Of a stretch of DNA of 64,000 bases, positions 3,020-42,769 are shown piece after piece. The stretch covers positions 725,001 through 789,000 of the forward strand of contig CM067538.1 in the NCBI GenBank assembly GCA_034509925.1. Direction: 5' to 3'. Position 1 is the first letter of the stretch, and every line of letters starts with the position of its first letter. The notes beneath the pieces are model-generated. The model ran no database searches. It saw only the letters and a list, made by a program, of their open reading frames with translations, and had not been told where the DNA came from. Source of the stretch: Hirudinaria manillensis (lineage: Eukaryota > Annelida > Clitellata > Hirudinida > Hirudinidae). The position numbers and the translations under genes are program-made.

Positions 3020-6000
3020 TCAAAATCTTCGTGACTTGGAGAAGATGGTGGCAAGTGTCTTACGACTGAAAATCCTCCTCAATCGACTTTCTCGACCCGA
3101 GGGCAGGGACCAGATGTAGTACCCTCTGCAAAGCAAACAACGGCAGTCAATAAACAACCGATGATCCCATTGAGTCCATCCACGCTTGAATATCCACGAA
3201 TGCCCTGTGGATAAGTGACAGGCAAGAGACGCCTCATGGGCGGCTAGCTAGCCTATTCAGAACCCCACCTAACCCTAACCCTGCCCTAATCCTGCCCTAA
3301 CCTTATCTTAACCCTAACCTTAAGGTACACTAACCCTATCCTAACCCCTGACTTTGATAGACCGGTGCACCCGAGTTGTGAATCGTGTTCTGCACGTGAC
3401 TTATCAAGGTACCAATGCCCACTACCCAATACCCAGAGAATCAGAGACGCTTTTTCATTCATGTAGCGCTTCTCCCCTACAGCAATCGGGTTCCACCCAC
3501 TCGACAATCCACCCCATGGGTACGATTCTCTTCGAGAACCAACCGGTACCTACTCACATGAACACTCCGAATGCAGAGAATCCCAGAATAGCGATGAACA
3601 AGTAGAGGCCGACCTCTTTCAGCGGTACGTTAGACTTAGAGGGCCAATCTTCTTCGTCGACCTCGTCGAAGACCTCCTCTGCAGCGGCGGCACAGGTACC
3701 CTCTATACCCACCTCGGGCAGGTGGGGTATGACCGCTTTGATGGACTGCATACACTCGGGCGAGAGGTCGAACGATTCGAAGATCGACATGTCGATGTCC
3801 GATTGACCCGGCAGGGGTTTCGCGTTCTGAGGGTCAAAGGTGAATCGGGAGGGGCGTTTCTTGGTGGTCGACTTGGGTCTTGCAACTTTAATTAGTGGTT
3901 GGTGAGGTTAGTGAGGTCATTTTTTTTTGGTAATGCCAAGTGTCATCGAGGTTTTAATTTTTTATAATAATAACAGTAGTAGTAGTAATAATAGTAATAA
4001 TAATAATAATAATAATAATGTTAATAGCTGTTATAATTATAACATTAATATCATATTATATGACATAATAGAGGGATAATATCCCTTCAATATGACCTTT
4101 TTTTATTTGGATTTATTTCGTAAAAATAAAAAAAAAATAATAATAATTATAATTCATTTTAAATAACAACAACGACTAATTTATGTAGCGCTGGATAGGC
4201 AATTATCTCCCTTTTCGGACATGGTTTATAAAGGACAGGTATGTAAACCTTTTGTGGTACCAGAGGTCTTTTCCTCATGAGGGGACCCAGTGCTGGTTGC
4301 TTGCTCCGTCAAGGTCATGTTGGGGACATCTGCCAGAGATAGATAAGGCCATTATTTCTGATAAATAACTTATAATTAATTAAATTATTATTAATTACTA
4401 TTTAAATTAATTATCAGTGAACCAGAATGTTAGACAAGTGACAGGTAAAAAAAGACATTCACAGGCGGTATCGTTAACACACCTAACTCAAACTCCCTTC
4501 AGGTCCCCTTAACCTTTCTTAACCCTGCCCAAGTCCTACCCATAACCTACCCAAACCCTACTCCAACCTTATCCTCTGTATATCCACGGCAAACCGATAT
4601 AACCCCTGCCTACGAGTTGTCCAGTTTGCCCGTCGCTCGTCCAAACGCACCTGACTTACCAACCTCTACTCAGGCAGAAGTCCCCGAACCAATCTTCCTG
4701 GCAATCATGGAGACACCTTCCGAACTCGTCGATGTTCTGGGCAGGACATTTGTAAATCTCCTGGCACGGTGTCTCACCAGCCCCGGCTATGCAACCTAAT
4801 GACAACAGATGGTTCAGTTCGAATTGTTTCAATTTAAAAACAAAACGAATTACGTCGAATTAAATTGCTAAAAAGCAATAATGTTTGTGATAAAATTTAA
4901 ATTTTTTATAAAATAAATTCTTCGTTTATGTGAAAATATAAACATAATATAAATATAATATTACATATTATATGAGATATATTCATGTATATGAAATATA
5001 AATATATGAATTCTTAAAACCATAAAATATAATTATAAATATAATAAAATAAATACAATTTATTCATATAACAACAAAAATATGTAAAAACATTAACCAT
5101 AGTTAATGATAATATTATTTTAATAATTAAGATAACAATAGTAACATTATTATCATTATTATTATTATCATTATTACTGAATTTGTTGCTTTTGTTGCTG
5201 TCCTCGTAATTTGATTAAATATTAAATAAATAAATTATTTATTTAATTAATTATTAAATTATTTGCGAGAATTAAAAAGATTTGTTTTACTGAAATCGTG
5301 AATTTAATAAATAAATAATTTCATTTAATTCTTCACAAATGTTAATAATTAAATAATAATAATAATAATAATATTGATATAAATGTTAATAATTAAATAA
5401 TAATAATAATAATAATAATATTGATATAAATGTTAATAATTAAATAATAATAATAATTCTTCACTAACCACTGTAGACCAAAGTCATGTTGTCTCCTCCA
5501 CAAATCCTGTCCTCACCTGAACACTTGGAGTCGCAGAGTTCAAAGTTCACGGGCGGGTGGTCAAGGTTGGTAAGGTTATTCGAGCAGAAACAGTAACTGG
5601 AATTCTAAACGGAATAATTAGACAATTACAATAATAATAATAATATTGATAATAATAATAATAATAATATTAATATAAACGTTAATAATTAAGTAATAAT
5701 AATAATTATTATTTATTAATTATTAGAAGCCATAACCAATAATAATAATAATATTATTATTATTATAATTATTATTATCAAGGTATAATTAATTATAATA
5801 TAATATCTTTACGATATGGTTATTTATAACCGATCGCCCCTTGCTAACCCTTGTGTATACTCAAGCTAACCCTGGTTAAAACCGGGCTGACCCCAGGCTG
5901 ACCCCGGGCTAACCAAGGACAAAGATTGGCCCCCTCCGAATATCAGTCCTAGATACCTAACCCTAACCTGTAGGAAAGCGTTGATGCTTCCTTTTTTGGC

Positions 6001-41700: not shown

Positions 41701-42769
41701 TAATAATAATAATAATAAATGAAAAAAAAATATATTAAAAAAAATTGGATGCGTTCTCACCCTTGAGATAAACTTCCACTTCGGATATTGACCCTTTCTT
41801 GGACACGTTCAGCTGATAGGCGTTGGGTTCGATTCCCACCGAAATAACTTTCTGAAAGTTATCCCTAAGGTCGCAATTGACCCTCATTGGCCGCCCGGGT
41901 TCTAGGAACTTGCCCGGGTACTGGCCACAGATCTGCTTGTTTTCTCTGTCGTCATTGAAAAGGTATAATTGGACGAAGAAGTTGTCTAGCAGGTTGTCTG
42001 CAGTGTTTAATTAACGGAATAACTATTATTTACATAAAGTAAATATCTAATTTACCTTTATTTGCCTTAATTGCATATTAATTGATAAAGTTAGTAGTGG
42101 ACTTCATGCTGTAATAGTTTATTACCAACGATGATTTTAAAGCACACGTCGTACCATGATTAACGTGGCACTCTCAGCCTTTTACTTAAATGTTAATGAA
42201 ACTGACCACAATCTTCACAATCTCCTGCATAGACCACCACGTTTCCAATGCCTTTTGTCGGTGGTAGTATCACTCTCAACTGGACCAATTCCTTATCACC
42301 GCAAGTGTTTTCCATATCCATCCTTCCGGACGAATTGACGCGTCCGTCCGTAACGACCGATCTACCCTTCGGCTTTGTTATGCAAGGTGGAATGACCATT
42401 TTCCCGAGGGCGATATTTTCATACGAGCCTGTTTGACTGAAAGTGACTGGAACTGAAATAAATAGTTAATTAATAATTCGTTAATTTAGGATTTAAGCCA
42501 TGTTTATTCCTTTTGCTGGTATTTTGCTGTTTGATAGTAGAAAGACTTTTTTTGGAAAGATTGGGCTCAACTTTTTTCTTGTTAATTTTCAATTTCATTT
42601 GAACTTTGCGATGATTAAATATAATTTTTTTTTTAAATAATGATTTTTTTAGAAAAGTCCGCCAAAAATCTACTAAAATTTATTTATTCATTCATTCAAT
42701 TGTAATTTAGACTGAAACAAACTCACAAATAAGGCAATTGATCATGCAGCCAACTAAGATTATGTTCAT
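38785..42769 (-). CDS. Gene F: FTLD-WSC-WSC-EGF-like membrane receptor
   Basis: Exons on the minus strand: 42727-42769, 42207-42452, 41761-41997, 41555-41694, 41141-41261, 40554-40690, 40121-40244, 39719-39850, 38983-39334, 38785-38824. They total 1572 nt (523 aa). Signal peptide 1-14 (short: MNIILVGCMINCLI). The F-type-lectin-like domain 15-175 opens with NIALGK, the strongest family match to fucolectin/discoidin starts, and has AGDCEDCG, PGRPMRVNC and ISEVEVYL. WSC1 is 176-262, WSC2 263-349 (CPGNDRSCGG), EGF-like 350-393. The stalk is Asp- then Pro/Thr-rich and lacks the Cys pair seen in most paralogues. The hydrophobic stretch 485-510 is long. The tail exon (VDTFRDKPKQSF) was chosen by phase and is uncertain. 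F is the array end, divergent from PPIP5K. Confidence 0.8.
40838..40900. repeat. (TAA)n microsatellite
   Basis: Pure (TAA)n in intron 5 of gene F, followed by CCTAACCCTAAC near 40980 and ACTATACTAATA repeats to 41130. Confidence 0.85.

Follow-up and report, generated by a model that had tools for sequence, protein, structure and literature searches.

A leech array of six genes for predicted membrane proteins with lectin-like, WSC and EGF-like domains is part of a larger superfamily

Six head-to-tail genes with a common exon layout

A window of 64,000 nucleotides from the leech Hirudinaria manillensis (GenBank assembly GCA_034509925.1, contig CM067538.1, positions 725,001 to 789,000; C13:725001-789000 in our notation) carries on its minus strand six head-to-tail genes, G1 to G6, for predicted membrane proteins with lectin-like, WSC and EGF-like domains. 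An all-against-all comparison of the minus-strand stop-to-stop open reading frames (ORFs) yielded six sets of homologous exons with outer limits at 3020 and 42769, exactly where the original prediction had placed a six-gene array. The array is a small outlier of a much larger superfamily, and we propose, with moderate confidence, that its genes encode lineage-expanded leech membrane-anchored receptors or adhesion molecules, most likely serving cell-surface recognition, either of non-self or between cells.

One gene model was built by hand from each homologous exon set, with the exon boundaries fixed by splice signals and phase; the exon joins are thus predictions. The order in each gene is a signal-peptide exon, lectin exons A and B, exons WSC1a, WSC1b, WSC2a and WSC2b, an EGF-like exon and an exon for the stalk and membrane helix, followed by an additional short tail exon, which was found in G1, G3 and G4 only (it was not found in G5). 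Among the 53 introns of the six models, 51 are GT-AG and two are GC-AG, one in G2 and one in G4. The intron phases run 1, 1, 1, 0, 1, 0, 1, 1, plus 2 where a tail exon was found, and G4 has two extra phase-1 introns. All domain borders are in phase 1, while a phase-0 intron lies inside every WSC domain. Domains flanked by phase-1 introns are the classic layout for exon shuffling, and since every domain here sits between such introns, the leech genes have that layout.

All coordinates of the genes refer to the minus strand. G1 (8271-3020; WSC expectation value (E) 3e-14) consists of the signal peptide at 8271-8211, a two-exon lectin unit at 8087-7243, WSC1 at 6998-6361, WSC2 at 6104-5469, the EGF-like module at 4795-4664, stalk and membrane helix at 3885-3558 and the cytoplasmic tail at 3125-3020. 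G2 (15405-10132; WSC E 2.5e-07) has its signal peptide at 15405-15354, lectin unit at 15087-14317, WSC1 at 14196-13533, WSC2 at 11431-11020 with the GC-AG intron after 11295, EGF-like module at 10864-10733 and stalk and helix at 10601-10132. The intron that separates WSC1 from WSC2 in this gene harbours a reverse-transcriptase fragment (13130-11955, minus strand; RVT_1, E 1.3e-23). The parts of G3 (21459-16038; WSC E 2.4e-13) are the signal peptide at 21459-21399, lectin unit at 20866-19981, WSC1 at 19194-18237, WSC2 at 17595-17106, EGF-like module at 16831-16700, stalk and helix at 16436-16172 and tail at 16099-16038. G4 (28532-22458; WSC E 1.3e-07) encodes a signal peptide (28532-28481), two lectin units (I, 28075-27199; II, 26768-26025), WSC1 (25692-25077), WSC2 (24710-23956), EGF-like module (23701-23570), stalk and helix (23120-22757) and tail (22545-22458). 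For G5 (38037-33591; WSC E 1.8e-09) we modelled the signal peptide at 38037-37986, lectin unit at 37642-36831, WSC1 at 36552-36142, WSC2 at 35577-34622, EGF-like module at 34183-34052 and stalk and helix at 33843-33591, and for G6 (42769-38979; WSC E 1.5e-09) at 42769-42727, 42452-41761, 41694-41141, 40690-40121, 39850-39719 and 39334-38979, respectively.

The predicted domain order therefore holds in five genes, but not in G4 with its two lectin units. These are 60% identical to each other and are sisters in the lectin tree (support 88/85). A second, truncated gene within G4 was considered and set aside in favour of a double-lectin gene, as no signal-peptide exon was found in a search between the two units. 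For the same reason a single fused G4, with the order lectin-lectin-WSC-WSC-EGF, is the simpler reading, the fusion itself being predicted. The seven window units group on one side of a modestly supported branch (75/88) of the lectin tree, and the window copies are old, with 30-60% identity. The proposed type I membrane topology is consistent with a hydrophobic helix at the C-terminus of all six proteins and with a signal-peptide exon modelled in each, the calls for G3, G4 and G5 being weaker. The three tails found are 34, 19 and 28 residues long, and no shared motif was seen in them.

Domains of the predicted proteins

Of the domains in the proteins, Pfam recognises WSC. WSC (PF01822) scores above the Pfam gathering threshold in all six (31.3-53.4 bits against 27.8), and eight cysteines are present in 12 of 12 WSC domains, two per gene. 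Nothing besides WSC exceeded the cut-off in the Pfam scan of the six proteins, so that a Pfam check of the spliced models supports the WSC assignment but neither the lectin nor the EGF assignment.

The EGF-like module has the spacing C-x8-C-x5-C-x10-C-x3-C-x8-C in all six genes, and to this extent the fixed six-cysteine pattern described earlier was found. However, the usual EGF spacing between the fourth and fifth cysteines is C-x-C; the modules have the atypical C-x3-C instead, and none scores above the cut-off of a Pfam EGF family. When 11 modules, taken from both the window and other loci, were compared with Pfam, four matched EGF_STAB1-2 weakly (best E 0.013), and the three other families listed are EGF families too. 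Since all of the listed weak matches are to EGF families, "EGF-like" seems a fair description, though as a description only and not as a statement of family membership. A profile search of the PDB with the module gave a single match, at E 0.46, to a different protein.

The N-terminal domain had been predicted to have an F-type-lectin/discoidin-like fold. In a profile search of the PDB with the seven window units, Sm-hPAF was matched at E 0.023 and 0.048, and with 16 lectin units it was the sole protein up to E 5 (two sequences, E 0.0025 and 0.0042), the alignment being nearly full length (positions 2-132 of 134). We take this match to be an F-type lectin domain. Streptococcus mitis is named in a review of F-type lectins (PMC5712786). 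The profile match gives the fold moderate support, as weak but specific evidence. On the other side, the N-terminal domain of the window proteins had no lectin or discoidin match in the Pfam scan; Pfam searched with 16 lectin units gave four scattered matches, of one member each (E 0.057-0.25) and none to a lectin; and among the results of the seven-unit PDB search was a thiol:disulfide protein (E 0.12) that is unrelated. Moreover, the fucose motif of F-type lectins, HX24RXDX4(R/K) (PMC5712786), is absent from all seven window units, the set that was scanned, even if X22-30 is allowed. Fucose binding is thus not predicted.

The loss of the fucose motif would suit another scenario, in which the proteins are not lectins but Kremen-like receptors that bind a secreted protein ligand through WSC. 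Kremen1 is among the PDB matches of G1 (E 0.0096-0.021). As described in PMC5014086, Kremen1 and Kremen2 resemble the leech proteins in being type I proteins with an eight-cysteine WSC domain (four disulfides in Kremen1), a linker and a membrane span; the Kringle-WSC face of Kremen1 binds DKK, so that WSC can bind a protein ligand, and the tail of Kremen1 can be replaced by a glycosylphosphatidylinositol (GPI) link. However, Kremen has the order Kringle-WSC-CUB with one WSC domain, whereas the leech proteins have two, lie in multigene arrays and show no Kringle or CUB match in any of the six. The scale of the expansion would also be unlike that of a developmental co-receptor. We consider a Kremen-like role decidedly unlikely and continue to favour cell-surface recognition.

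The superfamily beyond the window

The genome sequence that was searched comprises 148,429,096 bases in 23 contigs, and more copies were indeed found. The array is not a self-contained six-gene family: its domain order recurs in larger arrays elsewhere, and some arrays (the stretches read on C2 and C11) keep WSC-WSC-EGF with no detectable lectin. A window lectin unit used as query recovered the 14 exons of the window and two more, of which one is on C7 and the other at 6.56 Mb on C13; the C7 locus and the C13 locus at 6.55 Mb have the same order, with six of the seven exon classes recognised in each. When exon-class profiles were run over 200 kb of DNA from other loci, nine closely packed lectin-WSC-WSC-EGF genes plus partial units emerged at C12:1.23-1.29 Mb; eight of these genes extend through the EGF-like exon, and the ninth is truncated where the sequence examined stops. 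C12 carries the same order again at 5.64 Mb, as does C4 in two places at 12.84-12.86 Mb (one of the C4 A exons is weak, 7e-04). At C11:3.40-3.43 Mb and C2:4.22-4.29 Mb there are four WSC-WSC-EGF units each without a detected lectin: no lectin A or B exon was found at E < 0.02 in the eight units, and upstream of them there is no convincing weak lectin match, only one partial B match (E 0.003, 20 residues). WSC1 on C2 is directly preceded by an ORF in which a signal-like peptide was read by eye.

Most lectin, WSC and EGF-module matches sit on two other chromosome-size contigs. One C12 lectin query gave at least 87 exon matches, corresponding to at least 60 distinct loci (150 of 159 candidates scored), of which 55 are on C12 (0.154-1.652 Mb), three on C13 and two on C2; no window lectin reached the threshold with this query. 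For a WSC query, 150 of 333 candidates were scored and at least 96 half-domain matches obtained; C12 has 39 of these and C11 has 35. This count is a lower bound because no window WSC is among the matches. With the EGF-like module, 88 matches were obtained (125 of 125 candidates scored), all six window genes included, and a C11-type module added at least 18 (150 of 180 scored), for a total of at least 106. In 66 of these 106 cases a match to WSC or lectin lies upstream at a distance of no more than 9 kb, and 40 have no such neighbour. Six of the 40 are the window genes, which are absent from the neighbour lists by construction; the other 34 may be either diverged members of the family or EGF-like modules unrelated to it, which is why our figure of about a hundred genes for the superfamily is an estimate.

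The membrane helix is less uniform outside the window. A C-terminal helix is plausible in three of nine regions (C12 g2, g4 and g7) and unconvincing or absent in C12 g3 and in the two C11, the C2, the C7 and the C13 regions. Of the four genes scanned on C12, three have a hydrophobic stretch at their end and no tail after it, and in view of these tailless ends it is possible that the C12 branch is GPI-anchored.

Divergence and exchange among young copies

By Nei-Gojobori (NG) counts, synonymous divergence (dS) is below 0.6 in 11 of the 36 possible pairs of the nine genes on C12. In the young trio g2, g4 and g7, amino-acid changes lie mainly in the WSC exons; between g2 and g4 the WSC and EGF-like exons differ by 45 non-synonymous and seven synonymous changes (ratio 1.67) and the lectin exons by six and four. 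Fisher tests for an excess of amino-acid changes, as a sign of positive selection, on five young C12 pairs gave no significant result (0 of 5), the lowest p being 0.16, for g2-g4, and the other four ranging from 0.43 to 1.00.

Identity between young copies is patchy, some C12 pairs being more than 95% identical over part of their length. Thus, identity between g3 and g6 is 96.6% along 890 bp that span the lectin exons, with 1 change, but 82-93% in other parts. Between g5 and g9 the lectin has 18 non-synonymous and about five synonymous changes, and WSC is nearly the same (three and none). Because of this patchiness, gene conversion or unequal exchange is suggested. Apparent gene conversion, tandem arrays and membrane-anchored modular ectodomains would all fit genes for polymorphic surface proteins for cell-cell adhesion or for self- or allorecognition, gamete recognition included. 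The window copies, however, are old and diverged, and this specific role seems unlikely to us.

It is also conceivable that many copies are decaying duplicates of little function and that the arrays mainly mirror tandem duplication. Stop codons occur within several matches, two introns are GC-AG, the C12 array contains partial units and some parts of young pairs have a dN/dS close to 1. Yet the in-frame stops may in many cases fall at exon ends, since the searches ignore introns, and all six window genes keep open, cysteine-conserving domains despite a divergence of 30-60%. We regard decay as a very improbable account of the family.

Discussion

Why should a leech maintain so many copies of such genes? 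A family with diversified binding surfaces would fit the number of copies, the symmetry of the exon phases and the patchy identity. In the scheme that we favour, recognition at the cell surface, a signal peptide would export the protein, whose ectodomain would consist of a jelly-roll of putative F-type-lectin/discoidin-like fold, a pair of WSC domains rich in disulfides and the EGF-like module, carried on a charged or proline-rich stalk and a single membrane helix with a short tail or none. The lectin-like unit and the WSC pair would be presented to extracellular ligands, perhaps surface glycans or glycoproteins. Any signalling would presumably need a partner, as the three tails are only 19-34 residues long and no common motif was seen in them; adhesion, capture or co-receptor action is, for the same reason, likelier than autonomous signalling. 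Duplication, exon shuffling at the phase-1 borders and gene conversion could then diversify what is bound. Several results weigh against this proposal, namely the missing Pfam lectin matches and fucose motif, the stray PDB match, the membrane helix that is plausible in only a minority of regions outside the window and the negative tests for positive selection.

Immune use of the receptors is plausible. In a more specific version they would be innate immune pattern-recognition receptors, each copy binding a different microbial or parasite glycan, on haemocytes or on gut or epidermal cells. The arrays are large and recently duplicating, expanded lectin-like families of invertebrates often have a role in immunity (PMC5712786, PMC4346834 and PMC6835236), and leech discoidin-domain proteins have been suggested to be innate-immunity lectins (PMC7191736). 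Without significant positive selection in the five pairs or a common signalling motif in the three tails, we put this version forward as no more than a tentative candidate. Oyster innate immune families and bivalve C1q-domain proteins show lineage-specific tandem expansion as the leech genes do; however, their domains are different, and function is evidenced there whereas in the leech it is putative.

No protein with the leech domains in this order was found in the literature consulted. In line with the original prediction, which knew of no named receptor family with it, full-text searches of a library that lacks most subscription papers and preprints returned neither the lectin-WSC-WSC-EGF order, among the results listed, nor a paper joining "leech" and "WSC domain", nor one joining "WSC domain", "F-type lectin", "tandem" and "receptor". 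Polycystin-1 and the fungal Wsc sensors have other partner domains and another topology. What they share with the leech proteins is that WSC is displayed on the cell surface (PMC5336659). The same paper describes glycerotoxin, a venom protein of the annelid Glycera, which like the leech proteins has a signal peptide, two WSC domains and EGF, but with calcium-binding EGF and CCP, secreted and with no lectin domain or membrane anchor reported; the leech proteins, in contrast, have no CCP match and a C-terminal membrane helix in all six. F-type lectins (fucolectins), which the window domain resembles through its profile match to Sm-hPAF, are known with duplicated units and in mosaic, membrane-bound architectures (PMC5712786). 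However, the partners in mosaic forms, among them furrowed and CG9095 of Drosophila, are CCP, CTLD or pentraxin, rather than the WSC and EGF-like partners of the leech proteins, and F-type lectins carry the fucose motif that the window units lack; "WSC" is absent from the text of that review.

It is appealing to propose, though with less confidence than for the six genes themselves, that this leech possesses an apparently undescribed superfamily, probably of at least 100 modular surface receptors of the lectin-WSC-WSC-EGF type, some variants lacking the lectin and others having two. They would form a diversified recognition repertoire whose variability is maintained through gene conversion and tandem duplication, an annelid counterpart of the expanded recognition families of molluscs and sea urchins. 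If so, a large, recently duplicating family of lectin-like membrane proteins would be a natural candidate for the means by which a blood-feeding annelid tells apart microbes, symbionts, host cells and self. Leech genome studies have so far been mainly about anticoagulants; "WSC" is absent from the main texts of two leech genome papers (PMC10087013 and PMC10671345) and "WSC domain" from the text of a third (PMC7191736).

Neighbouring elements and genes

Between G4 and G5 lie ORFs of a non-LTR-type retroelement on the plus strand (29691-33208), with an RVT_1 match at E 8.4e-35 in 29691-32486 and a second frame at 32447-33205 that has no Pfam match; this element may separate G5 from its tail exon. 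Beyond G6, the N-terminal exon of a PPIP5K-type inositol pyrophosphate kinase gene is found at 43919-44359 (plus strand; PPIP5K2_N, E 3.5e-44), and more exons of this gene appear to follow downstream. A long open frame at 61804-63972 (minus strand) contains an FHA domain (E 2.2e-19) and is presumably kanadaptin-like. No RNA families were found within the window. Long simple repeats of three to five bases occur in many places of the window (for example 17660-18010 and 35100-35900), some of them open in several frames. A glutamate-receptor fragment in the genome has its best matches among AMPA receptors, the 60 listed of 356 PDB matches being AMPA-type; since ctenophores are not known to have receptors of this type, a ctenophore origin of the DNA, which about 13 chromosome-size contigs had suggested, was rejected. 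Elsewhere in the genome, 13 destabilase-family exon matches form tandem groups on contigs C12, C11, C4 and C3; the best PDB match of one of these exons is 8bbu (named Lysozyme, E 1.6e-24), which we take to be the destabilase of the medicinal leech.

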